From a virus, in the IMG/VR virus record IMGVR_UViG_3300035633_000976, positions 1-24,671 of that record: a DNA stretch of 24,671 bases, one strand, 5' to 3'. This document shows, one piece after another, positions 5,651-23,879 of this stretch. The position numbers and the translations under genes are program-made. Numbering within the stretch: the first letter of the stretch is position 1; each line of letters begins with the position of its first letter. The notes under the pieces are model-generated. The model worked only from the letters and a program-made list of their open reading frames with translations. It ran no database searches and was not told where the DNA came from.

Positions 5651-6064
5651 ATGGCATACTATAAGATAAAAAATATCACATCTACACTACCTAAAAGACA
5701 TCATGATAAAGATCGACCAGTTAAGGTTGAGTATTTGGACGGTCTTATCACCAAGAATTACATGCTAAAAGCTGGTGAAGAGATTTACATTATCTGTGAT
5801 AACCTACCAATCAATCTCAGAAAGATGAGAATCGATAAATTGGTTAGTATTCAACAAATTTCTGAAAATGTATATTACAAACTAAAAAGGGGGAATGTGG
5901 ATATCGCTAAAACTGTTTCGGCACCCTCACCTGAAAAAAAGAAAGTTGTGGATACTAAGACTAAGAATCAAACCACCACAGCAAAAAAGACCACCACTTC
6001 TAAAAAGAAGACTAATAGCTCTAGCACTAAGAAGGTAGAAGGTGAGTATGATGGAATTTCTTAA
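5651..6064 (+). CDS. Small protein with basic Lys/Thr/Ser-rich tail, unknown function
   Basis: The 137-residue product has a compact N-terminal part (about 1-90) with alternating hydrophobic residues, likely beta-rich. A low-complexity tail (about 95-130) follows, dominated by Lys, Thr and Ser (for example TTTAKKTTTSKKKTNSSST). Such tails are usually disordered and can bind nucleic acid or act as linkers. No family is recognised. The start ATG 5651 follows an A-rich leader with no Shine-Dalgarno sequence. A candidate terminator lies just downstream, and the next gene encodes a glycosyltransferase. The Thr/Ser-rich tail beside a glycosyltransferase parallels the poly-Thr proteins later in the window. 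Confidence 0.65.
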   Translation: MAYYKIKNITSTLPKRHHDKDRPVKVEYLDGLITKNYMLKAGEEIYIICDNLPINLRKMRIDKLVSIQQISENVYYKLKRGNVDIAKTVSAPSPEKKKVVDTKTKNQTTTAKKTTTSKKKTNSSSTKKVEGEYDGIS

Positions 6065-6158: not shown

Positions 6159-7565
6159 ATGAGCGATCAGATTAAAATTCTATTCCACAACCGTGATGCT
6201 GCGGGTGTAAACTATTTCAGAACTCAAACACCTGCTCAACAATTAGAAAGAGACCATTCAGATAAATTCAGAGTTGAAATTAATCCTGACTTGGATTTGA
6301 CTAAACCTGAGACAATTGAATATCTTAAATCATTTCACGTAATACATTATCACAGACAACTCGCTGGCTCAATACCAGATGCTATGAAACTAGGAAATGC
6401 TTTGAGAGAAGCAGGAGTGACTCTTATAGCTGACATTGATGATTATTGGTATCTAGATAAATCACACCCGTACTATCAACTTGCAAAACAAAGAAATCTA
6501 GCACAAGATGTCATGGATAACATTAAAATTGCTGATTATGTTACCACAACTACTGACATTTTTGCAGATGAAATTAGAGCATTACGCTCAAATTCAACGG
6601 TAGAGCTTTCGGAAGATCAAATTCGAAATGTGGGTGTTTTTCCTAATGCTGTTGATCCAGAATGGATGCGTCAGTTTGCTGATAACCGCAAACCCGACCC
6701 TAATGGTAGAGTTAGAATTACCTATATGGCTGGGTCTTCTCACATGAAAGATGTACAGCAATTAAGAGGTGTAATTAATAGGCTAAACACCGACCCAGCA
6801 ACTAAAGACAAATTTAAAATAATGGTAGCTGGATGGGATACGGCAGGAACCACCACAGATACCCAATTCAATAAAAAATTTGGACAAGAAATTCAAAAGC
6901 GTGGTCTTTGGAATTCAAAGATGGTTAAGGCAATTAATCGCTCTGGTGGTGATATTGATTTAATTCCTGATATCCCATCTGATCTTCGTGAAAAATATAG
7001 AGGACAAGTCTTCTTCACTAACCAAAGACCGATCAACTCAGAAGAGTCAGTATATCTTGAATATGAGAAAATTCTTACTGATGACTATAGATTAATTAAT
7101 GATCCTGAATACATCAAATGGCTTAGTAAGTATGAGCGTGATAATTATTCTAACGAAACCGTCTACGGCAGAAGATGGACACAGAAAGCCAATATTTATG
7201 CTAAGGTTTTAGATGAAACCGATATATCGATAGCACCACTTGCCGACCATAAATTCAATAGAATGAAGTCGAATCTAAAGCAAGTTGAATGTTGGTCTCG
7301 TAAAATACCGATTGTTTGTTCAGACATACCACCATATAATGTTGATGGCATACATGAGAGAAATTCCATGTTGGTACCAACTAAGAAAAACTCTGAAAAG
7401 TATTGGTTCAAATATCTGAAAAGAATGATTGTTGATGAGGAGTTTAGAAATGAACTGGGTCAAAATCTATATGATGATTTTTCTGAAAAGTATCATCTTA
7501 GAAATGTAACAAATAAAAGAGCGGAGTTCTATGAATCTCTAGTTCTTCAAGCGTATCAGGTTTAA
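6159..7565 (+). CDS. GT-B fold glycosyltransferase (GT4-like)
   Basis: The 468-residue product has the size and layout of a two-domain GT-B glycosyltransferase. The N-terminal part opens with strand IKILFHNRDAAGVNYFR, followed by VIHYHRQ and ADIDDYWYL (about 91-99), a pattern seen in phage GT4-like enzymes. The C-terminal Rossmann half contains VRITYMAGSSHMKDVQQL (about 190) and IVCSDIPPYNVDGIHERNSMLV (about 388-410), where the glycosyl-donor diphosphate normally binds. The enzyme should move a sugar from a nucleotide-sugar to an unknown acceptor in the cytoplasm. It lies 94 nt downstream of a gene for a Thr/Ser/Lys-tailed protein and 2 nt upstream of an uncharacterised gene. Acceptors could be virion proteins, host cell-surface glycans or modified DNA; the sequence does not decide. 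Confidence 0.8.
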   Translation: MSDQIKILFHNRDAAGVNYFRTQTPAQQLERDHSDKFRVEINPDLDLTKPETIEYLKSFHVIHYHRQLAGSIPDAMKLGNALREAGVTLIADIDDYWYLDKSHPYYQLAKQRNLAQDVMDNIKIADYVTTTTDIFADEIRALRSNSTVELSEDQIRNVGVFPNAVDPEWMRQFADNRKPDPNGRVRITYMAGSSHMKDVQQLRGVINRLNTDPATKDKFKIMVAGWDTAGTTTDTQFNKKFGQEIQKRGLWNSKMVKAINRSGGDIDLIPDIPSDLREKYRGQVFFTNQRPINSEESVYLEYEKILTDDYRLINDPEYIKWLSKYERDNYSNETVYGRRWTQKANIYAKVLDETDISIAPLADHKFNRMKSNLKQVECWSRKIPIVCSDIPPYNVDGIHERNSMLVPTKKNSEKYWFKYLKRMIVDEEFRNELGQNLYDDFSEKYHLRNVTNKRAEFYESLVLQAYQV

Positions 7566-7964: not shown

Positions 7965-8849
7965 ATGTATAAGATAAAATTTCTTCTTTTCAGAATTTAC
8001 ATATGGGTACATACACTATTCCTAAGAATAGGTATTGCTGTTGCTAAAGCTGAAGAGGTTGTTGGGATTAATGAACATGCGATTGGTGAGAATAAAAAGT
8101 TCAATATTCGAGTAAGGCATCGTAATCCCGTCATAAATAAATTGTTAGAAGGGCAGAGGGATGAAAAGTTTGTACAAGACTATTATGAGATTCTTCGGAA
8201 AGCAGATAAGTTTATGAAAACCGCTACTCCTGAGCAAATGGCTATTGCGGCAGATAAGCATGGTTTGAATTATGGATTGAAGGATCGCTGGGGTAGGCGA
8301 TATGAGCACTACGGTTTTTTTGATCCTAAGCATAAAAACTACGGCATGACCCTAGGAGAAGCTATGGCCAAAGAAGCTGAAGAAAGAACAACCAAAGACG
8401 ACAATTATAAGGTAGAATTCATGTACGACAATAGACCAATCGCAGAAGGATTGGCTGGTAGTAAGGATTTTATTGAGAAGGATGATGAGGTATTTGAAGC
8501 ACTTAGTGAAGTTGAAAAAGCCAAACTAAGAAGGTTTCCAATAAAAATTATACGTGATGAGAATAGGTTAAATAAAATTGAACAATTAGCAGAATTTTTA
8601 CACGTAAAAAAAATTACGGATGAGCATAAAATACTTGAATTCTTTATACCGAAGAAATTCAAACTCACAGATCATCTCAATAGTTCGGTATACAATGAAT
8701 TAATATCGATCAAACAGGTATGGGTAAAAGATGATTATGGTATCCCTTTCGGATATTCTGTAAGCGAACACTATAAATTTCTTGACTATGATCAATTATA
8801 CGATGTAATAAAATTTAAAGGAACACTAATAAAACAATTAACGATATGA
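7965..8849 (+). CDS. Uncharacterised 294-aa protein with N-terminal hydrophobic segment
   Basis: Residues 4-27 (IKFLLFRIYIWVHTLFLRIG) are hydrophobic with interspersed Lys/Arg/His and could be a membrane anchor or amphipathic helix. The rest is charged and soluble, with a region rich in Tyr, Lys and Gly (about 95-125, HGLNYGLKDRWGRRYEHYGF) and helical acidic stretches. I do not recognise a family. It is joined to the next gene by an ATGA overlap (8846-8849), so the two are probably made in linked amounts. The position just before the baseplate block suggests a virion or assembly role, but nothing in the sequence proves this. Confidence 0.6.
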   Translation: MYKIKFLLFRIYIWVHTLFLRIGIAVAKAEEVVGINEHAIGENKKFNIRVRHRNPVINKLLEGQRDEKFVQDYYEILRKADKFMKTATPEQMAIAADKHGLNYGLKDRWGRRYEHYGFFDPKHKNYGMTLGEAMAKEAEERTTKDDNYKVEFMYDNRPIAEGLAGSKDFIEKDDEVFEALSEVEKAKLRRFPIKIIRDENRLNKIEQLAEFLHVKKITDEHKILEFFIPKKFKLTDHLNSSVYNELISIKQVWVKDDYGIPFGYSVSEHYKFLDYDQLYDVIKFKGTLIKQLTI

Positions 8850-9259
8850 GCGAATTTTTAAAAAAAATGCAAGAACAGCTTGAAGCTGGCGAAAAAAGCG
8901 ATTTTGCTGACAAAATGAAAGAAATTGTTAACAAATCAGAATCTATGACTAGTAAAGAAGCGGAAGAAAAACTAGAAGAGAGATTAAATGAGGCAGGTAG
9001 GGTTGAAAATGACAAAAGTGGTGATGAAATGTTTCAAATTAATGAAGAGTATAGAAAGAAGATGCTTGAAATGAAAGAAGAGTCACGAGTTCTCTATGAG
9101 GTGGCTAGGATTTCAAACCTGAGAGCAGAAATTGATGCAACTAAAGCTGAACATGAAACAGTGATTAGAATAATGGAAGAAGAGCTTGCTGCTCTAACAG
9201 AAAAATTTGAAAATGAGAATGGAGAACTCAAAAATTACGTATCAGATTCAAATTCCTAA
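8846..9259 (+). CDS. Coiled-coil protein (137 aa), possible scaffold or chaperone
   Basis: The whole product is charged and rich in Glu, Lys, Met and Leu, with heptad-like spacing over most of residues 1-130 (for example EELAALTEKFENENGEL). It should be a long helical coiled coil with no globular domain. It starts in an ATGA overlap with the previous gene. A control region with a dyad and a strong terminator follows its stop, so it closes this operon. Phage coiled coils of this size placed before baseplate genes can be assembly chaperones or scaffolds. That is inference from context only. Confidence 0.65.
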   Translation: MSEFLKKMQEQLEAGEKSDFADKMKEIVNKSESMTSKEAEEKLEERLNEAGRVENDKSGDEMFQINEEYRKKMLEMKEESRVLYEVARISNLRAEIDATKAEHETVIRIMEEELAALTEKFENENGELKNYVSDSNS

Positions 9260-10081: not shown

Positions 10082-11935
10082 ATGTCTGATAGCCGAGTTA
10101 ATTATAATAAAAGAACCTTTTCTGAAATACGAGCAGAATTAATTGCATTGGTTCGTGAATACTATCCAGATATCCTATCTGACTTTAGTGATTCAAGTGT
10201 GGGTAGTTTATTGATTGACCTTAACGCAGGTGTTGCCAATAATCTTTCTGTTAACACCGATAGAGCGTTCCAAGAAACCCAAATAGAATATGCTCAACAG
10301 AGAGCATCGATTTTAAATATTGCCAAAAATTTAGGCTTTAACATCCCATCAAGAAGACCGTCTGTTACTGTGGTTGACTTTACTGTTGATGTACCTGTTA
10401 GAGGTGACCAACCCGATCCTGACTATCTACCAACACTACTACCGAATGCTCAAGTACTCGGTGGTGGACAAACTTTTGAAACAGATGAGGTGATTGACTT
10501 TAACTCACCAGTGAGTAATTTAGGTGATCCGAACAGATCACTAGTCCCACAATTAGATACTAATGGAATTATTCGAAGATACAGGGTAACTAAAAGAGAA
10601 GTTGTCGTTAATGGTGAGACTCAGATATTCAGTCGAGTTATTCGTGATTCTGAAGTTATTCCTTTCTATAAGTTGAGATTACCTGATCCAGACGTGACTG
10701 CTATACAGGACATTATTCTATTGGCAGGGACTACATTTAATTCTGATCCATCAGAGGACGATTTCCAAAATCCAGAAAACAAGTATTACGAAGTGGAGCA
10801 TCTTTCTCAACAAAGAGTTTTCGTTGAAGACCCTAATGGAGGTAGTAATGTTTCAACAACTGGTGACAGTGGAATAAAAGCGGGTAAATGGATTGATGTG
10901 ACCAAAAAGTTTATAAAGGAGTTCACTGCTGATGGATTTTGTGAACTGACCTTTGGTGGTGGTAACGGTGAACTTGATGCATTTAAAGAGGGTTTTTTGA
11001 AAGCGGGTGTTAGTAATAGAGCATTTTTAGATAATTATTTAGAGAACACGGCACTCGGTGAAAGATTAGTAAGAGACCATACTTTATTTGTGAGATATCG
11101 TGTTGGCGGTGGTACCGCATCTAATCTTGGTGTCAACACTCTCACCAACCTAGGTGCATTCACATTAAATGTTGACGGGCCACGTCAGGATTTTAATAAT
11201 GAAGTTAGAACTAGTTTCACAGTCAACAACCCAATTCCTGCAATTGGTGGTAACAATGGTTTATCTGTTAATGAGATAAGAAACTTAATCAAATACAATT
11301 TTTCATCACAAAGAAGAGCAGTAACCATCAATGACTATCTATTCAAGATATTTGAAATGGATGGACAGTTCGGATCACCATATAGAGCAAATGCGTTTAA
11401 GCAGGATAACAAAATCGTGATACCGATTCTTGGTATCGGTTCTGATGGTAAATTAAACAACACATCAAATACTGTATTGAAAGAAAACATTACTGAGTAC
11501 CTAAGTGAATTTAGAATGGTTAATGACTATGTTGAGGTTCGTGATGGGAGAATATTTAATCTTGCTCTTGACATTGAGGTTTTTGTGAGCAACGAAAACC
11601 AAAACATCATTGCGAATTCAATTATTCAAGAAGTTACTAATTTCTTTAGTATTGATGACCAACAAATGAATGAGGACATATTCATCACACCCTTAATAGA
11701 AACAATTAACAACGTGACGGGTGTGATCAACGTGCTTAGTCTAAAGATATTTAATCAGGTTGGTGGTCAGTATTCTTCTAATTTTGTTGAACAGGAATTT
11801 GTTAACGATGCCACCAGAGAAATTCAATTGATTAATCAAACCATTTACTCAACAGAGGACTCGATGTTTGAAATAAAATTTCCACAAAGAGACATAAGAG
11901 TAATTCCAAAAAAGAGGGTTCAACTTTCTAGATAA
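10082..11935 (+). CDS. 6: Baseplate wedge protein, gp6 / baseplate J-like
   Basis: The 617-residue product matches T4 gp6/phage P2 gpJ-type baseplate wedge proteins in size and layout. The N-terminal part contains YYPDILSDFSDSSVGSLLID, then a helical stretch QIEYAQQRASILNIAKNLGF. This is the J-family motif where a helix with a YA.QR.SI pattern precedes a beta-rich domain. The protein should link the wedge to the baseplate core and the gp25-like partner encoded 8 nt upstream. Its stop overlaps the start of the 69-aa gene by 1 nt. The middle and C-terminal parts (about 130-617) are beta-rich; no insertion or frameshift is visible. Confidence 0.9.
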   Translation: MSDSRVNYNKRTFSEIRAELIALVREYYPDILSDFSDSSVGSLLIDLNAGVANNLSVNTDRAFQETQIEYAQQRASILNIAKNLGFNIPSRRPSVTVVDFTVDVPVRGDQPDPDYLPTLLPNAQVLGGGQTFETDEVIDFNSPVSNLGDPNRSLVPQLDTNGIIRRYRVTKREVVVNGETQIFSRVIRDSEVIPFYKLRLPDPDVTAIQDIILLAGTTFNSDPSEDDFQNPENKYYEVEHLSQQRVFVEDPNGGSNVSTTGDSGIKAGKWIDVTKKFIKEFTADGFCELTFGGGNGELDAFKEGFLKAGVSNRAFLDNYLENTALGERLVRDHTLFVRYRVGGGTASNLGVNTLTNLGAFTLNVDGPRQDFNNEVRTSFTVNNPIPAIGGNNGLSVNEIRNLIKYNFSSQRRAVTINDYLFKIFEMDGQFGSPYRANAFKQDNKIVIPILGIGSDGKLNNTSNTVLKENITEYLSEFRMVNDYVEVRDGRIFNLALDIEVFVSNENQNIIANSIIQEVTNFFSIDDQQMNEDIFITPLIETINNVTGVINVLSLKIFNQVGGQYSSNFVEQEFVNDATREIQLINQTIYSTEDSMFEIKFPQRDIRVIPKKRVQLSR

Positions 11936-12144
11936 TGGAAAAAATAAAAAGAACGGCAAAGCAGAAGGTTAGATTAACCGATATTGGTAATAATCAGGCA
12001 ATTATTGAACCTGATCCAGATGCAACATACAGCTTTAAAATTCTTTTGACCGAAAGACTCACTGATTTAGGTTTTTTTGAAGCCATTGATCAGAATAATG
12101 TTTACAGTAATACCCTTTTCGGTATAGGGGAAGAACTACTTTAG
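11935..12144 (+). CDS. Small virion protein (69 aa) ending FGIGEELL
   Basis: The ATG at 11935 shares its A with the last base of the gp6-like stop codon (TAATG). The product includes VRLTDIGNN (about 12-20), a phrase echoed in the later 446-aa protein's IKLTDLGRQ. It ends FGIGEELL. The second propeller protein (stop 23879) ends FGIGEDLL, preceded similarly by VYTPSI versus VYSNTL. This strongly suggests a shared C-terminal peptide, perhaps an assembly or docking tag. No family is recognised. Confidence 0.75.
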   Translation: MEKIKRTAKQKVRLTDIGNNQAIIEPDPDATYSFKILLTERLTDLGFFEAIDQNNVYSNTLFGIGEELL

Positions 12145-12146
12145 TT

Positions 12147-13061
12147 ATGAAGTATATACATTCAATGTGGTCAGCACCATCTACGAAAAAAAAGTTTGAT
12201 GGTGACTTGGATGAAAAATATCTAATAAAAAATTTTTACACTTATTTTCTTAGTGCACTATTAGCTAAATATCATGGTCATTCGATTGATCTAATTTGTG
12301 ATGAAAATACATTATCAGTGTATGGTGACATACCTTACAACAACATAAGTGTTGTTGATTTTGAAAACGATGGAGTAAGTGATAAATTTTGGATATATGG
12401 TAAGATAAAGGCACATACCCTAATGAATGAGCCGTATATTCATGTTGATGGTGACGTGTTGCTAATAAATGACATTGATCAGAAATCTTTTAGTAATGCG
12501 GGTGTTGTGGTTCAACAAGTAGAAAATCATAAAATTCTACCAACTTTCAACAAGAACTATTTATCCTCATTGCCAATTTTTGAGAAAGTATTGCCTGAGA
12601 TCAATTGGAATAAATATGGCCTTGTAGCTTACAATTGTGGGGTGGTTGGTTTTACCAATATGAAACTCCAAAAAAAATATGCTGAGGGTGTTCAGGAAAT
12701 ATTACAAAAATTATCTTCTTATTCTGACTTTAAAAATGTGAGAGAAAAATATGCGGGGATGTTTTTAATTGCTGAACAATCATACCTGTATTTATTACTA
12801 CAAGATGAGAATATAGCACCTTTAGAGGTTTTAGAGCATCAAAAATTAATGGATGCTGATGATTCATGGGTTGCTATGAATAAAATTGCTCAAAAGAAAG
12901 GCTATATCCATTTATGGGCATCAAGTAAATATAGGAATGATGTCATTGAAAAAATAAGAAAAAGAATAAAAAGAATGTTTCCAGAATACTACCATATTTT
13001 GGAGAAATTCGAACTAGATTATAAAGATGCAATTCACGGTAACAGGTCAGTCTTCAAGTAG
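12147..13061 (+). CDS. GT-A glycosyltransferase, DUF6734-like
   Basis: The 304-residue product carries a metal-binding DxD in HVDGDVLL (Asp101-Gly-Asp103), typical of a GT-A fold. The N-terminal MKYIHSMWSAP, helix YFLSALLAKYHG and downstream FWIYGKIKAHTLMNEPYIH match the DUF6734 pattern I know from Bacteroidetes. The enzyme would transfer a sugar from a nucleotide-sugar to an unknown acceptor. It follows the 69-aa gene by 2 nt and its 3' end overlaps the next gene by 35 nt, so it is embedded in the baseplate operon. That placement is unusual for an enzyme and points to a role in building or decorating the virion. Confidence 0.82.
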   Translation: MKYIHSMWSAPSTKKKFDGDLDEKYLIKNFYTYFLSALLAKYHGHSIDLICDENTLSVYGDIPYNNISVVDFENDGVSDKFWIYGKIKAHTLMNEPYIHVDGDVLLINDIDQKSFSNAGVVVQQVENHKILPTFNKNYLSSLPIFEKVLPEINWNKYGLVAYNCGVVGFTNMKLQKKYAEGVQEILQKLSSYSDFKNVREKYAGMFLIAEQSYLYLLLQDENIAPLEVLEHQKLMDADDSWVAMNKIAQKKGYIHLWASSKYRNDVIEKIRKRIKRMFPEYYHILEKFELDYKDAIHGNRSVFK

Positions 13062-13491
13062 ATTAGTTGAGTTGAGGAAATATGTGGTTTCTGGCCCACT
13101 CACTGATCTTTATTTTCTTTCAGGTGCTCCTGAAGATGGGGATGGGTTAAATCCGAATGAAAGTGTTACGGGTGCCACAGCTTCCACACTGACATATTAC
13201 ATTGGTGGGATAACGTATGTTGATCAAATCGTTGAAGACACGACAACCACGTTTTTTTCATTCGAATCCTCTGGATGTAGTGACCCTAACAATTTTGTTG
13301 ACCTACCTATTCTTAAAGATGAAAGTAAACAAAATATTGTCGCCAAACCAGAAGTTGGAAGTGATGTATTTATAATCAGGGAATCCCTATCAGTTTTTGA
13401 AAATCACTACCGTCTAAGAAGTGTGGGTAGTTTAGCTGAGCTTGAGTTCTATGCTGGTGGGCGTAATTTCAATATTGTAAATAATACATAG
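13027..13491 (+). CDS. Uncharacterised virion protein (154 aa)
   Basis: Starts at ATG 13027, 35 nt inside the glycosyltransferase gene, in another frame. The product opens MQFTVTGQSSSRLVELRKY, with a beta-rich, Ser/Thr/Gly/Asp-rich composition typical of tail proteins. The first strand TVTG recalls the TITG and TVSG openings of the later 203-aa and 459-aa proteins, but similarity beyond that is weak. No membrane or catalytic motif is seen. It lies 1 nt upstream of the next gene and is probably a baseplate or tail component. Confidence 0.65.
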   Translation: MQFTVTGQSSSRLVELRKYVVSGPLTDLYFLSGAPEDGDGLNPNESVTGATASTLTYYIGGITYVDQIVEDTTTTFFSFESSGCSDPNNFVDLPILKDESKQNIVAKPEVGSDVFIIRESLSVFENHYRLRSVGSLAELEFYAGGRNFNIVNNT

Positions 13492-13492
13492 T

Positions 13493-14416
13493 ATGGCAAT
13501 CGGTAATTTTGGTAATATTCGTGCTGCTGATATCGATGTTAATAACATCGATGTGTTTTATAGTTATTCACCAGATCGTACACAAAACTCTAATGAATTT
13601 TTTAGGTTAACAGCCACAGATGTTTTAACGGATATCCCACTTCCTGATGGTGATGATCTTGTTGGTAATGATACTGATGATAATCTTTTGGAAGGGATGT
13701 ATAACTTGACACTCCCTTCAACAGTTTTTAATGAAACTGGAATATATACGGTATATCTGCAACCAAAAAAATATCGTACTGTAATACAGGATTGTGGTGT
13801 GTTGTCAGCACTACCAAGTATTAAAGGTATACTACTAGACAGTAATGATTTGCCTACGGAATTAACCGCTAACAATGCACTACAGGGATTTAGAGTTGAG
13901 TATATTAATGATGATGGTACTAAACTAAGAAATGTATCAAGATTTATAACAACTTCAAATAAAGTGATTCCCGTAACAGAAAACATTGGTAACACTTCTC
14001 AGGCTTCGGTTAGATACCGATTTGATGACGCTGGTACGCTTATCTTTTGTCAGGTGACCCCATCATCATCTAGTAACGTTAAACCGAACGTAACGCCATT
14101 TATTGGCCTACCTAACCAAAATATTATTATAAGCAGCACTGCTTTTAATCCATTGGCTGTTGAGGTTGAGTTTGTTGAAAATGATATTGATACTGTAGTT
14201 GATTATGTGGGTGGTGAACAAATTAAAGATGTGGATAACGGTATACTCACACACTACACTCGTGATGATAATGGTGATCGACAAATTCTAAAACAATTTG
14301 ATTTATATGAAATTAAGGATGATGTTGGTAATGTTTCCTTATTTGAGGTTAAGGAAGAAAGAGACACTATCGACAACACTCAAGACTTTTTAGATATTAC
14401 TGATAGTGTTCAGTAA
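13493..14416 (+). CDS. Uncharacterised virion protein (307 aa)
   Basis: A beta-rich, Asp/Asn/Thr-rich protein with no signal peptide, membrane helix or enzyme motif. A PLPDGDDLVGNDTDDN stretch (about 49-64) is acidic and may bind Ca2+, but this is a guess. It ends the operon that starts at the 9656 promoter and is followed by a good terminator. Position between the gp6-like and the large wedge gene implies a baseplate role, for example a gp53-, gp8- or gp10-type component; I cannot match it to any of these from sequence. Confidence 0.65.
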   Translation: MAIGNFGNIRAADIDVNNIDVFYSYSPDRTQNSNEFFRLTATDVLTDIPLPDGDDLVGNDTDDNLLEGMYNLTLPSTVFNETGIYTVYLQPKKYRTVIQDCGVLSALPSIKGILLDSNDLPTELTANNALQGFRVEYINDDGTKLRNVSRFITTSNKVIPVTENIGNTSQASVRYRFDDAGTLIFCQVTPSSSSNVKPNVTPFIGLPNQNIIISSTAFNPLAVEVEFVENDIDTVVDYVGGEQIKDVDNGILTHYTRDDNGDRQILKQFDLYEIKDDVGNVSLFEVKEERDTIDNTQDFLDITDSVQ

Positions 14417-14444
14417 TTTGTTTTCTCATATTCGTTTTTCCTAT

Positions 14445-14475
14445 AATCCCGATTTAATAATCGGGATTTTTCTTT
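14445..14475 (+). terminator. Rho-independent terminator
   Basis: AATCCCGATT and AATCGGGATT form a perfect 10-bp stem with a TAAT loop, followed by TTTCTTT. It ends the gp25-to-307-aa operon and directly precedes the next promoter element. Confidence 0.85.
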
Positions 14476-14479
14476 ACTA

Positions 14480-14495
14480 GTATTTATATGAAATT
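14480..14495 (+). promoter_or_regulatory. Late promoter candidate GTATTTATATGAAATT
   Basis: It differs from the 9656 and 20517 copies at one base (G for A). It follows a terminator and its core ends 15 nt before the GTG start of the 1204-aa gene. This is the context expected for a promoter. Confidence 0.7.
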
Positions 14496-14503
14496 CGAAT
14501 TTA

Positions 14504-17500
14504 GTGGCAAGACGAAGAGTAATAAACAATGGTCAGAACCAGAATCTAATTGGTGGTAATTTTTTTAACGTTGCATCCGAAACAGTTTTCAATTTAGGCA
14601 CTTTCAAAGTTGAGACCAATCTAGCGGGAAGAAGAACCAGAAGGTATGGTAATGAATTAAGCAGTTTCGCTAGACCGATCACACTAGAAACTATTCAGTT
14701 AAACGATGAGGATTCTGATAGGGTTGAACTGATGAACAACAAGGTTGTGTTGAACCTTGATAGATCGGATATTAAAAACTTTGCACGGTTCGGTTCTGCT
14801 TCTGAAATATTTCGTGTATCTGTTCGGAACATTATTTCAACATATCCTGCAAGTCTTTATGCTGACCCACAAACTGATTTAGGTGGTAGCACCACTGTAT
14901 TTGATTATAGTTATAATCCACTTGACGATACTGCTCTATTTAAAATTCCATCAAGAGTACTTAGTAATGACTTCGGACTCATATTTGATCTTGGTAATCA
15001 AACCATACCTGATGAAAATGAACTTAAAAATCTAAACATATCATTCTCAAGATATGTTGTGTATCGCCCAAGCGATCCAACAGACAATTCACATAATTTG
15101 ATTGGGTTTACTGGCGACAGTCCCTCAAGACAGTTTATTACGGTTAGATGTCTAGGGAACCCGTTTGATGAACTTACTGGTACCACTGCGCTTGCTCAAG
15201 TTCATTTAAAACCTAATGTGCTTGACTATAATAGATTTTATACTGATCTAAATGACCTTGAGCAATTTCTCATATCAAATAGATTGGATGATAATACTGG
15301 ATATGTTGTCAAACTTAAAGGCCCAAGGATAAATCAACAAGGAGATGTTCGTTTCTCAGATGTCAGCTTTAAGTGGCCTACAACCGATGGATATAATCTT
15401 GATATTACGGGTGCTGGTTTTGATAGTTATTTAAATGGAATTTTAGGTATTGGAACTAGTTACGATGATATTAAAACTGATTTGGTGGCACGACTTCTTA
15501 CTCCATCATCCATTAAAGTATACGATGAAACAAATGAAGGTAAGATCACCAAGCTTTTAAGGATATACGGTCGTGAATTCGATGAGATTAAAAGATTCAT
15601 TGACTCGCTTGTTTACATCAATAGAACAACCTACGATAAAAAAGAGAATGTTCCTGATATTCTAGTTAAAAATCTAGCTAGGAGTTTTGGCTGGGATACT
15701 TTCAATTTAGTTGAAGAGACTGATCTAGTACAAGCATTTTTTTCGGATACAGAAGAACAAAGTGAGGATGTACTTCTTCCACCCGATATAGATATTGAGC
15801 TATGGAGAAGGATCATTATCAACACCAATTATTTCTGGAAATCAAAAGGTACTAGAGCAGCAATAAAGTCAATATTTCTTCTGATTGGTATTCCAGAACC
15901 TTTTATTAATATCACTGAATATGTTTATACTGTCGATGGGAGGATAAATCCAGACACAGTAACACTCGATCTTGCTGATTTACCTTCAGCAACGCTACCA
16001 TACAATAGCCAAGGCTTTCCAATAGCACCAGCAGAAACCAATGATTTTTTCTTTCAAATATCGGGTGATACTGATAGCGGTCAGGAGTACATTAATTTAT
16101 ATAGAAGATTAGGCTTCCAAGTAAATAGAACAGTCGATAACAAAAAGTCATGGCCACAAGCAGGCATCGTTGAGAGAATTGACGACACTACCCCTAACTA
16201 CTTCCAACAGGATAGTCAATTAATAATCAACACGAAAGAAATTGATATTACACTTGATCTGGCACGTGGAATCGAATATGATGTTTATTGTTATAATAAA
16301 GATGTTGATGAGCCTTTAACGTCATCGGCTGTAACACGACCATACATTTATGTTAATGTTCCTTTTGAGTATGGAGTGTCTGCAAATACATTTACTATTC
16401 CCGAAACACCACTATCTGGCAGTGCAATTCAGGTAAACTTTAACGGGATTACACTTACATCAGGAGGTACTGGTCAAGGAGATTATACTAGAGTAAATGA
16501 TACGACAGTACAATTAAACGATCAGGTTGCCCTTGAGCATTCAAATGGTGATAGAGATGAAATTACTTTAACCTATCTCCACGATAGACTTGATTCGGCA
16601 GCATTTCAAACAGTAAAATATATTGTAACAGCACCAGTGGTAAATGCCAATGGTACTGTTGTTGATTTAGGTGAAGAACCATTAGGGGATATACAATTAG
16701 TGGTGAATGGTGTTTCATTAACGAAAGGTACAACCTTATTCACAGGAGATTTTATTATCGATCCAAATGATCGCACTAAAATTATTATTCAAAATACCGA
16801 GCTTCAGTTATATCTGCAATCAAATCCTGTGGTACGTATTTGGTATATTGTTGACGATGGGGAAACCACAGTAAGAAAACAATCTGAAGCCTTTAGAGTG
16901 GATAGTTTTAACTCAAGCAAATTGTTTTTTGATCCACCGAATTATGTTTATACCATGAACTATACTGGCTTTGATGGAGAATCAATTAAAGTTACACTAA
17001 ATGGTATTACACTACAAAATGGAAGAGACTTTACGTTAAATCCAAACAATAAGAAACAGATTAAGTTTAAGACGAGTGTTAATATAAATTTTGGTGATGT
17101 GATCGGTGTTTACTATATCATTGGTACTGGCACCACACCACCACTTCTTCCACAGGATGATACTTTTCCACCAGTATCCGATTTAAGTTTCTTGGAGTAT
17201 TTGGAGCTTATTCAGCGAAGACTAATTAACGTGAGGAACAGAAAAGTTATTAGTAATTTCAATGGTGGATATTATCCAACAGTTCTTCAGTTATATGAAG
17301 AATATGTGAGAAGAAGCTTCCTACCGTCTTCTGATCCACTTGTTAGTAATGGATATACTTTTGAAAACTTATATCCATTCATTAATCAATATAACGCCTT
17401 TTTTACAAGATTCATTAATCAATTAATGCCTGCAACGATAATATTAAGAAAAGCTGGTATTATGATTAGAAACACCTCATTTACTAGGCAAAAGTTTATG

Positions 17501-18118
17501 TATAGACGAGGCGTAAATTTTGATCCTAATTTACAATACCTAGGTGATGATAGTGCAATATATAAAAAAGTTATTCCATCAGGTAGTTGTGAATGGACTG
17601 ATGATTTTGTTTGTGAATTTGTACCACCACCAACTACGACCACAACCACATTACCACCACCAACTACGACCACAACCACTACGTTGGCACCACCACCGAC
17701 AACTACGACCACTACGTTGGCACCAACCACAACTACAACCACAACGCAGGCACCGACAATTGGTCTGTTGTTACAACTTACACAAGACGGTGGGCCTACA
17801 GCAGAGTTTAGAGGTAATTTTTCAGGAACAATACTCAATGTGACAGGCCAAATTGATACTGCACTTGGAAGTAGAACATTCACAAGCTCTAGTGTGTCGA
17901 CCACTCTTACTAAGAACGACAATGGTGGTTTCATGGAATCAACTCTTTCGGCTACAATCAGGTATTTCCGTAATGGAATTAGTCAAGGAACTAGATTCTT
18001 AAATCCTAACGAATTTGTGAACGAAAGTTTCACTTTTACTGGTGTTGGTGCGAGTGATGTATTAAGTATTGAGATTGAAACAGAATTTGAATTACCACAG
18101 ATACCTGAACTCCGATAA
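14504..18118 (+). CDS. Large baseplate wedge/tail protein (gpI/gp7-like) with Ig-like repeats and poly-Thr linker
   Basis: The 1204-residue product begins at GTG 14504, just after the promoter, with no better start. Residues about 336-470 look like the phage P2 gpI family: IRxYGREFDEIKRFID, then FWKSKGTRAAIKSIFLLIG (about 443), where relatives have a KGT...A...L..LG motif. The length and place after gp25/gp6 also suit a T4 gp7-like wedge protein. Three tandem beta units (about 619-700, 700-785, 799-876) each carry a (V/F)NG(I/V)(T/S)LT/Q motif, like fibre Ig-like domains. A FLxYLELIQRRLINVRNR helical region and a Cys-containing segment follow. A poly-Thr/Pro linker at 1044-1081 leads to a C-terminal beta domain (about 1085-1200). 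That domain resembles the C-terminal part of the 203-aa protein at 21886. The last part is probably surface-exposed. Confidence 0.8.
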   Translation: MARRRVINNGQNQNLIGGNFFNVASETVFNLGTFKVETNLAGRRTRRYGNELSSFARPITLETIQLNDEDSDRVELMNNKVVLNLDRSDIKNFARFGSASEIFRVSVRNIISTYPASLYADPQTDLGGSTTVFDYSYNPLDDTALFKIPSRVLSNDFGLIFDLGNQTIPDENELKNLNISFSRYVVYRPSDPTDNSHNLIGFTGDSPSRQFITVRCLGNPFDELTGTTALAQVHLKPNVLDYNRFYTDLNDLEQFLISNRLDDNTGYVVKLKGPRINQQGDVRFSDVSFKWPTTDGYNLDITGAGFDSYLNGILGIGTSYDDIKTDLVARLLTPSSIKVYDETNEGKITKLLRIYGREFDEIKRFIDSLVYINRTTYDKKENVPDILVKNLARSFGWDTFNLVEETDLVQAFFSDTEEQSEDVLLPPDIDIELWRRIIINTNYFWKSKGTRAAIKSIFLLIGIPEPFINITEYVYTVDGRINPDTVTLDLADLPSATLPYNSQGFPIAPAETNDFFFQISGDTDSGQEYINLYRRLGFQVNRTVDNKKSWPQAGIVERIDDTTPNYFQQDSQLIINTKEIDITLDLARGIEYDVYCYNKDVDEPLTSSAVTRPYIYVNVPFEYGVSANTFTIPETPLSGSAIQVNFNGITLTSGGTGQGDYTRVNDTTVQLNDQVALEHSNGDRDEITLTYLHDRLDSAAFQTVKYIVTAPVVNANGTVVDLGEEPLGDIQLVVNGVSLTKGTTLFTGDFIIDPNDRTKIIIQNTELQLYLQSNPVVRIWYIVDDGETTVRKQSEAFRVDSFNSSKLFFDPPNYVYTMNYTGFDGESIKVTLNGITLQNGRDFTLNPNNKKQIKFKTSVNINFGDVIGVYYIIGTGTTPPLLPQDDTFPPVSDLSFLEYLELIQRRLINVRNRKVISNFNGGYYPTVLQLYEEYVRRSFLPSSDPLVSNGYTFENLYPFINQYNAFFTRFINQLMPATIILRKAGIMIRNTSFTRQKFMYRRGVNFDPNLQYLGDDSAIYKKVIPSGSCEWTDDFVCEFVPPPTTTTTTLPPPTTTTTTTLAPPPTTTTTTLAPTTTTTTTQAPTIGLLLQLTQDGGPTAEFRGNFSGTILNVTGQIDTALGSRTFTSSSVSTTLTKNDNGGFMESTLSATIRYFRNGISQGTRFLNPNEFVNESFTFTGVGASDVLSIEIETEFELPQIPELR
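17633..17746 (+). repeat. Poly-threonine linker DNA tract 1
   Basis: Encodes residues 1044-1081 of the 1204-aa protein: Thr runs of 6-7 broken by LPPP, LAPPP and LAP. The codons vary (ACT/ACC/ACA/ACG), so selection acts on the peptide. The repeated ACTACGACC and TTGGCACCA blocks still leave DNA-level repetition. Confidence 0.9.
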
Positions 18119-18121
18119 AAT

Positions 18122-19045
18122 ATGAAGTACTTAATATCAACATCAGATACAAAATATTTTCAGTGGCAATTGATTGTTCAACACCACAATTTTTTAAAAA
18201 ATAATATCCATAAGGATATGATTTTAGTTTACTCTTTTGATCAAAAATCATCAAAAGAATTTGAACGGTTATGTCGGGCGTTAAGAATAAAAGCTTATGG
18301 ATATCTAGATGATAGAAAAGAGTGGGGATATACCCCATCAAAAAGATCATACATTTTATCAAAACTTTTCAATGATCTTCCAGAGCTTGAAAACGAAACA
18401 ATATTTTTCACCGATCCAGATGTTCTTTTTAATAAAAAACCAGATTTTTCAAAATTTGATGATGACGATATTTGGTATTTGAGTGATACTCGTTCGTATC
18501 TGGATTCAAAATATATTAAAAGTAAAAGTGAAGAGCTTTTTATTAAAATGTGTGAGATTGCTGATATCGATCCACAATTAGTAATCGATAATGATAATAA
18601 TGCTGGGGGTGCTCAATACATCATGAAAAACCTGAATGCAGAGTATTGGTTAGAAGTAGCACATGTTGCTGAAAAGCTTTACAAATTCATGAAAAGTACC
18701 GAGAGTAAGTATAATCCTGAACACCCGATACAATCATGGACAGCAGATATGTGGGCATTAATATGGGTTGCATGGAAAATGGGATATCAAACAAAAATTC
18801 CAAAAGAAATGAATTTTTCTTGGGCAACAGATTCAATAGATAAAGTAGAGAGTGAGGGTATTTATCATAACGCAGGGGTGTTCGATCAGAAAGATTTATT
18901 TCATAAGGGACATTATTCTGGTAAATATCCGTTTGGCGATGATTTATCATTTGTGAACGATAAAAAAGGTAGCATTTATTATGCAAGAGAGATTGCGGAC
19001 ACAAGTAAAAAATATAAAGAAATTTTAGAATATATAAATGGCTAA
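18122..19045 (+). CDS. GT-A-like glycosyltransferase between two poly-Thr tail genes
   Basis: The 307-residue product has a DxD-type site in IFFTDPDVLF (Asp98-Pro-Asp100), then NNAGGAQYIM (about 159-168), SWTADMWALIWVAWKMG (about 205-221), and IYHNAG (about 247-252). These resemble the acceptor/donor-site order of GT-A enzymes. The DPD site with a downstream GGAQYI and HNAG remind me of peptide-O-glycosyltransferases of the plant HPAT/SGT type. I treat that as a distant likeness only. It starts 3 nt after the poly-Thr wedge gene and its end overlaps the start of a poly-Thr propeller gene by 8 nt, so all three are co-translated. Glycosylation of the Thr linkers is a natural hypothesis; other acceptors are possible. 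Confidence 0.75.
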   Translation: MKYLISTSDTKYFQWQLIVQHHNFLKNNIHKDMILVYSFDQKSSKEFERLCRALRIKAYGYLDDRKEWGYTPSKRSYILSKLFNDLPELENETIFFTDPDVLFNKKPDFSKFDDDDIWYLSDTRSYLDSKYIKSKSEELFIKMCEIADIDPQLVIDNDNNAGGAQYIMKNLNAEYWLEVAHVAEKLYKFMKSTESKYNPEHPIQSWTADMWALIWVAWKMGYQTKIPKEMNFSWATDSIDKVESEGIYHNAGVFDQKDLFHKGHYSGKYPFGDDLSFVNDKKGSIYYAREIADTSKKYKEILEYING

Positions 19046-20510
19046 TAGTAGACGATATTTAATGAATTGCACATTTACTGTCCCTAGTGGGGTTACAACA
19101 GTAACAATTACCAATCAGTATGATTTAACTACAGCCTTTTCAGGGACTAGTTTATTCGGTGGTAATTCAGGTGAGACATTTACTTATAGTGCAATTACTT
19201 TAACGGGTCTTACATTTTTGTCAAATGCTGAATATGAAGATCGAGCTAGAGATTTTATATCATATGTTCATGGGTTAACCGCAAACACTCTTAATTATTC
19301 AATATCAGATTTAAACAACTTACTTAATCAGGCCGAGCAAGATGATCCAATTAATTGTCCTGATCCGACTACCACAACATTAGCACCAACCACAACATTA
19401 GCACCAACAGCAACTACTACCACAACCACCACTACCACAACCACTACAATACCACCAGATACTCTTATTGCTGTTGGCGGTGCAGTCCTTGCTGGGGATG
19501 ATAGTGCATTTATTTTAAGGTCTACTGATAGTGGTATTAGTTGGGGTTCAACAACAATAACAGGTGATCCTGATAATCTTCGTTCAGTTAGAATGAGAGA
19601 CAGTTCTTTTGGTATTGCTGCTGGTGGCGTTGGGTCTGCTTTCGCAACAACTAATGGTGGTATTAGTTGGGTTCAATATGGTTCAGATGGAACGACTGGT
19701 ACTGTTCCAACTGGTGGGGGAGTATTTCCAAACAGTGATCAAAATGTTGATTTTTCAAGAGTATCTAATTTTGAAGGGAATACTGTGGTTATTGTTAGTG
19801 ATGGAGGTACTGGTGGTGGTGCTAATACAGAGAGACAACCTAGATATTCAAATGATAACGGGAACCAATTTGCAATAACAATGGGTGGCGGCAATCAAGG
19901 TAGACACGCATATAGAGATGTTGTTGTACTTGATTCAAATACTGTTGTTGCTGTTGGAGTTGGGTCTGGACAAAATGCTGATTCCATTGAAAAATCAACT
20001 AATGGTGGGCAATCATTTACTGGAATTATAAATAATGGGCCAGACTTTAATGCCTTAGCATTTAGAACCAATAATGTTGGTTATGCTGCTGGTCTTAATG
20101 GATTGTATTATGTTACCAGTACTAGTGGTGACTCATGGACAGATCAATCTGGAGCACTTCCAACTATAGATAGCAATGATCCAGACATCTATCGAATTCA
20201 ATTTGTAGATAGTAATGTTGGTTTCATGCTTGCTCATGAAGATAGTGTCAGTGGTACAACAGCAGTAATTGCAACTAATAATGGAGGTATCACATGGACA
20301 CTAATTAATCCTGCTGGTATCACAGCAGTTAGACCACCTAATGGTATACTTCCTTCTGATATGGTGTGGAAAGATGATCAGGTTGGTTACATATCATTCT
20401 TGGACGGTGATGTAATTCAAACACAAGATGGTGGTGTTACATGGATATTAAGAGGAAATGTTGGATTATCTGGTACTGATGAGCTTAGAAGTATTGCGAT
20501 AGTTCCATAA
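19038..20510 (+). CDS. Tail adhesin: N-terminal domain, poly-Thr linker, seven-repeat YCF48/BNR-type beta-propeller
   Basis: The 490-residue product has a beta-rich N-terminal domain (1-105). A Thr-rich linker follows (111-137). The rest is a beta-propeller with seven BNR/YCF48-type motifs: RSTDSGISW, TTNGGISW, YSNDNGNQF, STNGGQSF, TSTSGDSW, TNNGGITW and TQDGGVTW. Seven copies fit a seven-bladed propeller. YCF48-type propellers and sialidase BNR repeats often bind sugars or proteins; in a phage tail gene this suggests a receptor-binding or adhesin head held on a flexible stalk. No sialidase catalytic Arg triad was checked. ATG 19038 lies inside the glycosyltransferase gene end. A promoter element follows its stop. 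Confidence 0.8.
   Translation: MANSRRYLMNCTFTVPSGVTTVTITNQYDLTTAFSGTSLFGGNSGETFTYSAITLTGLTFLSNAEYEDRARDFISYVHGLTANTLNYSISDLNNLLNQAEQDDPINCPDPTTTTLAPTTTLAPTATTTTTTTTTTTTIPPDTLIAVGGAVLAGDDSAFILRSTDSGISWGSTTITGDPDNLRSVRMRDSSFGIAAGGVGSAFATTNGGISWVQYGSDGTTGTVPTGGGVFPNSDQNVDFSRVSNFEGNTVVIVSDGGTGGGANTERQPRYSNDNGNQFAITMGGGNQGRHAYRDVVVLDSNTVVAVGVGSGQNADSIEKSTNGGQSFTGIINNGPDFNALAFRTNNVGYAAGLNGLYYVTSTSGDSWTDQSGALPTIDSNDPDIYRIQFVDSNVGFMLAHEDSVSGTTAVIATNNGGITWTLINPAGITAVRPPNGILPSDMVWKDDQVGYISFLDGDVIQTQDGGVTWILRGNVGLSGTDELRSIAIVP
19368..19448 (+). repeat. Poly-threonine linker DNA tract 2
   Basis: Encodes residues 111-137 of the first propeller protein: short Thr runs broken by LAP, then a 12-residue Thr run. 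ACN codons are mixed, with an ACTACCACAACC-like repeat. Confidence 0.9.
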
Positions 20511-22499: not shown

Positions 22500-23879
22500 A
22501 TGCCAGACATTCAATATACGGTATCGGGATCATTTGCGCCTTTTGGTGTTGAATTGCGTGAAGGTGGGTTTACTGGGCCACTTGTAAGAGAAGCTGCACA
22601 TCTTTCAGGTGGTACTTTTGTTTTTGAAGATGTCCCTGTTGGATCGTATGTTGTTGTAGTTTATGATTCTGTAGGGGGTCAATTAGTGTTTACTGGTTTA
22701 GCTGAAGTTACTACAACCACTACAACGACTACAACCACTACAACGACCACTACAACGACCACAACCACTACAACAGCAGCCCCTACCACAACTACGACCA
22801 CACTATCTCCGTTCCCTGTTCTAGTTGCGGTAGGAAATACTACTAATCTTTCTACTGGTAATGCTGCAATATATAGATCAGTTGATGGTGGGGAAACATG
22901 GTCAACTATTGTTGATCAATTGTATGGTACATTAAATAGTAATTTATTTACAGTAAACAAATTTAATGACGGATTAACCATGATTGCTGGTGGTGCGAAT
23001 GGGTTGGTGTTACGGTCGGATGATGCTGGTCTTACTTGGACTTTTATTGACCGTCTTAATACTGGAAGTATTCTTGCATTTGCCTTAAGTGAAGTTTCAA
23101 GAGGTGTGGACGGAACAATGCATGGTGTTGTAGGAGCCACTCTATATAGAACAACTGATAGCGGACAAAATTGGTCTCAATTGGCTAGTAGTGTGGGTGG
23201 AATATCTAATGCAATCTTCTATGACCCACCATCAACAGTTGTCGCAGGGTATCTAGGTGGGATTTCTCGTTCAACAAACAATGGCAGTAGTTTTAGTACT
23301 AGAATAGCTGAAGGGTTCATACGTTCTATTGATTTCGGCACCGAAAATAATGGGATTGGAGTTGGGGTTCAAGATATTAATACAGATGACGAGGCATTAT
23401 ATTACACATTTAATAATGGACAAAGCTGGACGGATGGAACAGCATTTTTACCGTTAACACCAACTGACGATATAATTCTTGAGCAAGTACAATTTGTTAC
23501 TCAAGAAATCGCATATGTTGTTGGTGCGAAATTCCTGAATGATGACATTAACGATATTGATGACCCTGTATTTTATAGTGGTAATACTACTTTTGGGAAT
23601 GGATGGATAAACTTATCAGCACCACTTACCGCAGTAGCCAATTCAGAAGGATTAACTGGCCAACAAAGATCAGTTAATAGTTTATTTTTTAGTGATAGGA
23701 ACGTTGGATGGGTTGCTTTTGAAGGCGGTGTTGTTGCTAGAACACTAGATGGTGGACAGAGTTACGATGTGGTTAGAACACTACAGAGTAACCCAACAAC
23801 GGATCGTCTTTTCGCAATTGTTGGTGTTGAGGGTGTTTACACCCCTTCAATATTTGGTATTGGAGAAGATTTACTATAA
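22500..23879 (+). CDS. Tail adhesin: shared N-domain, long poly-Thr linker, seven-repeat YCF48/BNR-type propeller, FGIGEDLL tail
   Basis: The 459-residue product has four parts. Residues 1-70 are the N-domain shared with the 203-aa protein. Residues 71-101 are a poly-Thr linker with one 22-residue Thr run. Residues about 108-440 contain seven BNR/YCF48-like motifs: RSVDGGETW, RSDDAGLTW, RTTDSGQNW, RSTNNGSSF, YTFNNGQSW, a weaker one with FGNGW, and RTLDGGQSY. The last residues are FGIGEDLL, nearly identical to the end of the 69-aa protein after gp6. The propeller is a likely receptor- or glycan-binding head. The pair of propeller proteins with different N-domains suggests two adhesins, or two attachment points for one kind of head. 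Confidence 0.8.
   Translation: MPDIQYTVSGSFAPFGVELREGGFTGPLVREAAHLSGGTFVFEDVPVGSYVVVVYDSVGGQLVFTGLAEVTTTTTTTTTTTTTTTTTTTTTTAAPTTTTTTLSPFPVLVAVGNTTNLSTGNAAIYRSVDGGETWSTIVDQLYGTLNSNLFTVNKFNDGLTMIAGGANGLVLRSDDAGLTWTFIDRLNTGSILAFALSEVSRGVDGTMHGVVGATLYRTTDSGQNWSQLASSVGGISNAIFYDPPSTVVAGYLGGISRSTNNGSSFSTRIAEGFIRSIDFGTENNGIGVGVQDINTDDEALYYTFNNGQSWTDGTAFLPLTPTDDIILEQVQFVTQEIAYVVGAKFLNDDINDIDDPVFYSGNTTFGNGWINLSAPLTAVANSEGLTGQQRSVNSLFFSDRNVGWVAFEGGVVARTLDGGQSYDVVRTLQSNPTTDRLFAIVGVEGVYTPSIFGIGEDLL
22710..22802 (+). repeat. Poly-threonine linker DNA tract 3
   Basis: Encodes residues 71-101 of the second propeller protein: 22 Thr, AAP, then 6 Thr. At DNA level it is an imperfect repeat of ACTACAACGACC-like units, the most regular of the three tracts, so it may vary in length by slippage or recombination. 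Confidence 0.92.

Follow-up and report, generated by a model that had tools for sequence, protein, structure and literature searches.

Do glycosyltransferases encoded among the tail genes of a phage modify the phage's own virion proteins? This question is raised by the stretch of DNA analysed here, hereafter the window, which is a 24,671-base virus contig (IMG/VR record IMGVR_UViG_3300035633_000976), a fragment of a genome, with three glycosyltransferase candidates in its late region, all within 13 kb. We named them GT1 (12147-13061), GT2 (18122-19045) and GT-B (6159-7565); all three are on the plus strand, as are the candidate acceptor genes, their linkers and the short gene before GT-B described below. 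From the sequence alone, the original prediction had placed these open reading frames among tail genes, which our gene layout confirms, and had read them as a virion O-glycosylation system. That reading stands for GT2, for which we infer sugar attachment, and is not supported for GT1 and GT-B. We consider it likely that GT2 glycosylates poly-threonine (poly-Thr) tracts as a portable cassette, and that a separate GT1 module pairs with a C-terminal tag.

Poly-threonine tracts and GT2

GT2 (307 aa) starts 3 nucleotides past the stop codon of a gene for a large baseplate/tail protein (14504-18118, 1204 aa), whose homologues occupy the same slot in relatives, and overlaps the next gene (19038-20510) by 8 nucleotides, with poly-Thr tracts on both sides, exactly as first described. 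The upstream protein is a predicted acceptor with a C-terminal poly-Thr/Pro linker, PPPTTTTTTLPPPTTTTTTTLAPPPTTTTTTLAPTTTTTTTQAP (17633-17746), built of four blocks T6/T7/T6/T7 (T6 being a run of six threonines). The downstream gene encodes a predicted adhesin, also a predicted acceptor, in which an N-terminal domain is joined by a poly-Thr linker of T4 and T12 (19368-19448) to a BNR/Ycf48-like propeller (PF14870, E = 2e-6). Further downstream, a second predicted adhesin (22500-23879) has an N-terminal domain, a linker of T22 and T6 (22710-22802), a BNR/sortilin-like propeller (PF14870, E = 2e-10; PF15902, E = 2e-9) and the C-terminal tag VYTPSIFGIGEDLL; it is a predicted acceptor of GT2 at its linker and perhaps one of GT1 at its tag. 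Seven runs of T6 or longer were observed in the window, where residue shuffles gave 0.0. The tracts are written with all four threonine codons (ACN) mixed and are therefore kept at the protein level; this mixture rules out codon slippage as their source.

Viral contigs yielded nothing when scanned with the GT2 sequence alone, and an alignment-based search was used instead, with 80 of the 533 viral loci found being fetched along with wedge-gene loci, isolate phages and prophages. The resulting 74 GT2 loci are non-redundant, de-duplicated rather than phylogenetically independent, and an upstream gene was called in 73 of them. The gene immediately upstream of GT2 had a run of at least five threonines in 55 of these 73 loci; one gene farther upstream the figure was 13 of 67, and among genes lying more than five genes from GT2 it was 5 of 233 (2%; Fisher P = 9e-39 for adjacent versus distant). 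In the reverse test, 50 IMG/VR records were picked only for an in-frame run of at least eight threonines and then scanned for GT2, which was present in 10; in all eight records with both genes in the fetched DNA, GT2 was the next gene downstream of the Thr-run gene. The family of GT2, phrog_4417, occurred in 13 of 395 Lactobacillales genomes, and 12 of the 13 prophages carried the tail on the gene just upstream. Ten genes adjoining poly-Thr genes without GT2 yielded one weak GT-B match when scanned, and therefore no second general poly-Thr partner emerged.

The tailed proteins of isolates and prophages are mutually non-homologous, comprising major head proteins (PHROGs 544, 840 and 10/617), major tail proteins (PHROGs 88, 117 and 341) and baseplate or adhesin proteins. 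On unrelated major head and tail proteins the tail takes the C-terminal form VPTTTTTTTSK, and the poly-Thr tail peptides among these phages include TTTTTTTSK and TTTTTTTTTRHD. The tail protein of phiFL1A ends in TTTTTSTTTTTTSSTTTTTTTQASSK, with GT2 beginning at its stop codon; T7 to T10 ends the major tail or major structural protein in bIL285, 1706, TPWB06, RQ1 and VFW; and the tailed protein in 4995_1 and in prophages of Enterococcus and Lacticaseibacillus is the capsid protein, often together with the tail protein. Adhesin stalks had originally been named as the targets, which agrees with the adhesin linkers of the window and is too narrow in scope, since major capsid and major tail proteins are tailed too. 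The most divergent enzymes, those of LP65 (L377) and 521B (L378) at 26-28% identity, pair with divergent tails, TTTETQTQTQ in LP65 and PTTVAPTTV (TTVAPTTVKP) in 521B, which suggests that enzyme and acceptor co-vary.

It had been proposed to check whether the glycosyltransferase and the poly-Thr genes are gained and lost together, and for GT2 the outcome is positive across unrelated phages and virion proteins. The capsid proteins of iLp84 and CL2 are 98.5% identical, and iLp84 has GT2, a capsid ending in VLVPTTTTTTTSK and a tail protein ending in SGETTTTTTTSK, whereas CL2 lacks GT2, its capsid ends in VLIPKP, and six consecutive threonine codons, (ACN)6, occur nowhere in its genome. Across the two phage families compared, tails were present in 3/3 GT2-positive and 0/10 GT2-negative phages, CL2 being one of the ten; another of them, Bassarid, does match (ACN)6, in a different part of the genome. 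The window itself belongs to a jumbo lineage: its baseplate-wedge protein has relatives in environmental myoviruses of 300-370 kb and distant relatives in a Flavobacterium myovirus and others. When whole records of this lineage were scanned, (ACN)7 was found in 9 of 12 with GT2 versus 1 of 12 without, with (ACN)6 used instead for L109 (one of the nine) and L094. In the sole GT2-negative record with (ACN)7, L102, the contig stops within the Thr tract, leaving the next gene out of view. Like the gene positions, the predicted folds described below and the co-occurrence, this joint gain and loss is directly established.

Two further arrangements of GT2 were seen. Tandem copies, mutually diverged, lie in L107 (12048-14302) and L109 (18701-20551). 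In L025 and L026 (about 7986-8942), a GT2 relative sits behind a non-structural, polymerase-like gene with the Thr tract absent, and in L026 several possible sugar-enzyme genes come next on the opposite strand.

Predicted folds and cellular homologues

GT2 matches phrog_4417 over its full length (E = 5e-66, residues 1-294 on profile positions 1-291 of 293), a family annotated as 'unknown function' and also as 'prophage pi2 protein 34'. GT1 (304 aa) matches DUF6734 (PF20508; E = 7e-31, 108.1 bits against a curated cut-off of 27), a family without assigned function. The two enzymes are thus members of these families, for which the functions are newly proposed here. Sequence searches of the Protein Data Bank (PDB) found relatives of neither enzyme, and neither matched Pfam Glycos_transf_2 or NCBIfam.

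The AlphaFold2 models, built on alignments of 17 relatives for GT1 and 52 for GT2, reached predicted local distance difference test (pLDDT) scores of 87 and 97, respectively. With Foldseek, the GT1 model matched LgtC, glycogenin, GlyE and UGGT in the PDB, and the GT2 model matched UGGT, xyloside xylosyltransferase, glycogenin and LgtC, both at template-modelling (TM) scores of ∼0.4-0.5 and ∼10% identity to known GT-A structures. Both enzymes also carry an acidic metal-binding motif. In GT2 this is DPD at residues 98-100, where D98 is invariant and D100 is conserved in at least 90% of 59 diverse sequences, and the HNAG..K motif at residues 249-262 is conserved across the same set; in GT1 it is DGD at residues 101-103, with D101 and D103 conserved and H255 and K261 as further residues. 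The GT-A identity of the pair, at first a guess from sequence, is therefore now backed by models and conserved residues, and activity is predicted for both. GT2 is modelled as a GT8/GT24-like GT-A fold. The best fold matches of both enzymes are GT8/GT24 retaining enzymes (LgtC, glycogenin and the UGGT catalytic domain), differing in that GT1 and GT2 are not members of those families by sequence. The substrates of glycogenin and UGGT are glycoproteins.

An independent sign of the substrate comes from cells. Homologues of phrog_4417 in Niabella and Chitinophaga have lanthipeptide precursors and genes for a lantibiotic dehydratase or a LanC-like protein as neighbours, and the Bacteroidota homologues L170 and L171 lie within class I lanthipeptide clusters, the lanthipeptides of which may possibly be glycosylated. 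Because Bacteroidota homologues are found in such clusters, the family probably acts on polypeptides, as judged from this gene context.

GT1, a C-terminal tag associated with it, and GT-B

The original prediction had also tied GT1 to poly-Thr, and this link did not hold up: GT1 goes with a different, C-terminal tag. The 69-aa protein encoded before it in the baseplate operon (11935-12144) ends in VYSNTLFGIGEELL and is a predicted acceptor of GT1, which would modify this tag; the adhesin at 22500-23879 shares the tag. Its type is FGIGEELL in the window and PIGLENL-type elsewhere. Using a pattern of GIGExLL or IGLxNL types, which replaced a stricter pattern that missed GIGExLL, we counted tagged gene ends at 45/762 in loci with DUF6734 and 0/842 in loci without, a contrast that is weakened by the derivation of the pattern from the very data in which it was counted. 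In non-redundant loci, homologues of the small protein were tagged in 19 of 32 cases where DUF6734 lay no more than 1.5 kb away, versus 0 of 31 where it did not (Fisher P = 8e-8). L002 and L016 differ by one block: their identity is 94% until midway through the small gene and 92% beyond, and between those flanks lie 965 bases in L002, holding the tag-coding end and GT1, and 30 in L016. The stretch before the tag is 12% Tyr in tagged versus 6% in untagged homologues, and it could be speculated that Tyr is the GT1 acceptor. Where DUF6734 lies behind another gene, the small protein ends otherwise (DNNxDNFIYE), so the tag rule is not universal.

The tag could instead be a nucleotide-level signal, such as a ribosome-binding site or a coupling element, rather than a protein tag. 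Its position allows for this, as it mostly lies no more than ∼25 nucleotides from the DUF6734 start and could overlap the ribosome-binding site of that gene. We nevertheless find such a signal unlikely: the same tag ends proteins that are not followed by DUF6734, namely the window adhesin and the small proteins two genes upstream in L337 and L340, and a ribosome-binding-site artefact is therefore disfavoured, while small proteins without a nearby DUF6734 are never tagged. A different alternative concerns all three enzymes: as they share 13 kb of one late region, they might belong to one pathway that assembles a single oligosaccharide on common acceptors. This is a still less probable account, since the enzymes come apart in relatives: L016 has GT2 without GT1, and its phage (L123) has GT-B, whereas L158 combines GT1 with GT-B, lacks GT2 and gives 0 poly-Thr matches over its whole record. 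L158 thereby also provides a relative that keeps GT1 with no Thr-rich partner.

GT-B (468 aa) is backed as a glycosyltransferase by its match to phrog_7162, 'glycosyltransferase'. It comes after a gene for a short protein with a K/S/T-rich tail, TTTAKKTTTSKKKTNSSSTKK (5651-6064), as originally noted, though not 'directly', as the gap is 94 nucleotides. The short protein is upstream of GT-B in relatives too, its tail variable and mostly Lys-rich, with or without GT2, GT1 and poly-Thr. We accordingly see no specific tie of GT-B to poly-Thr, as the gene is kept in relatives both with and without GT1 and GT2. That all three enzymes serve poly-Thr was rejected, with GT1 following the C-terminal tag and GT-B following neither.

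Several smaller observations were made around these genes. The alternative DUF6734 layout occurs in L151, L158, L164, L165, L315, L338, L339 and L345, where the small protein has a conserved end of roughly VETFYLVDSxxNPFVDNNxDNFIYE, and NRGWIxxxYV is often the end of the gene preceding the enzyme. Just past the wedge gene in L115, L118 and L121, homing/restriction-type endonuclease-like genes fill the slot of the small baseplate protein. In L001 (1-1773), an insert that resembles an intein and runs from CVVGDTLISTNRG to HNSNLKQVECW splits the GT-B homologue.

Proposed virion glycosylation and its alternatives

In the mechanism we propose, GT2 would act in the infected cell, where it would link a sugar to hydroxyl groups in the poly-Thr tracts of virion proteins made by the same phage. 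Its acceptors in the window would be the Thr/Pro linkers of the upstream baseplate protein and the two propeller adhesins, while in other phages, where the same tract ends the major head protein, the major tail protein or both, the result would be a glycan coat; acceptor tail and enzyme as next gene would together make up the portable cassette. A separate module in the same operon would consist of GT1 (DUF6734) and the C-terminal tag on the 69-aa baseplate protein and one adhesin. Glycosyl transfer of this kind might benefit the phage through shielding, protease resistance or adhesion. A broader reading, which we regard as evenly balanced between right and wrong, is that portable sequence-coded tags steer dedicated glycosyltransferases, poly-Thr being served by phrog_4417 and an independent C-terminal tag by DUF6734, both in one baseplate, with phrog_4417 as a general polypeptide glycosyltransferase common to phage coats and bacterial lanthipeptide pathways.

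Some observations weigh against glycosylation of the tracts by GT2 and of the tag by GT1. A few GT2 loci have no Thr tract nearby (phages L025/L026 and L082; cellular L169 to L171), and others have interrupted or alternating tracts only (TTTEAPTTTE, TTAPATTAPA, STSTST). The small protein is untagged in 13 of the 32 non-redundant loci with DUF6734. At TM scores of only ∼0.4-0.5, the substrates of GT1 and GT2 may not be the same, nor need either match those of known GT8/GT24 enzymes, and co-occurrence fixes neither the sugar, nor the residue, nor the causal direction. Finally, 40 of the 50 records sampled for T8 or longer have no GT2, showing that poly-Thr occurs alone. This last point would also suit an explanation in which poly-Thr is an unmodified flexible spacer, or itself binds host glycans, and GT2 is a non-catalytic chaperone or lectin for the tail. 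The retention of the putative metal-binding aspartates and the HNAG/K motif in 59 diverse sequences favours catalysis, however, and makes that explanation highly improbable. We hold it just as doubtful that GT2 targets host surface glycans or phage DNA, for superinfection exclusion or anti-restriction, and is adjacent to poly-Thr through shared variable late-operon slots. It is well established that some phage glycosyltransferases alter host serotype or DNA (reviewed in PMC12619734), but the genes that GT2 follows are unrelated to one another (capsid, tail tube, baseplate) and each has a Thr tract, while genes six or more away have none to speak of; near-identical phages without GT2 are without tails; and cellular homologues lie in peptide-modification clusters. 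The tight pairing with virion acceptors likewise argues against DNA glucosylation by GT2.

In the searchable literature, outside which most subscription papers lie, we found no description of poly-Thr phage glycosylation, or of the acceptor codes and enzyme families proposed here. Virion glycosylation of mycobacteriophages was reportedly described by Freeman et al. in 2023 in Cell Host Microbe. According to the summaries in PMC12619734 and PMC11256854, phage-encoded glycosyltransferases act on these virions, whose capsid and tail tube subunits carry glycans at their C-termini. Poly-Thr tails sit at the same places, and in phrog_4417 phages, too, a phage-encoded enzyme is tied to capsid and tail C-termini; the two systems differ in that the chemistry is proven for the mycobacteriophages and expected for GT2, and that these summaries mention no poly-Thr acceptor. 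A tblastn search with GT2 across 50,697 phage records found relatives in 74 isolates, none of them a Mycobacterium phage, and a tblastn search of phage records with GT1 found no match.

The serine-rich repeat adhesins with GtfA/GtfB provide a second comparison, as a surface protein rich in hydroxyl residues that adjoins its own dedicated glycosyltransferase. Those enzymes are GT-B, whereas here we see a single GT-A enzyme, a Thr homopolymer and virion proteins.

With this proposal, phrog_4417 acquires a specific function that can be put to the test. The family occurs in phage isolates of lactic acid bacteria, enterococci and staphylococci as well as in many prophages, and hundreds of contigs from environmental phages, jumbo phages among them, carry it. 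If the proposal is true, many phage capsids and tails would be mucin-like glycoproteins, which would bear on virion stability, on adsorption and on the search of virion proteomic data, and enzyme and tag would offer a compact pair for protein glycosylation.

Elsewhere in the window, 122-814 and 811-1926 each encode a protein that is predicted to be membrane-bound or secreted and matches no PHROG, and upstream of the late region a protein at 3272-4789 matches anti-restriction (phrog_7245) and metallo-protease profiles.

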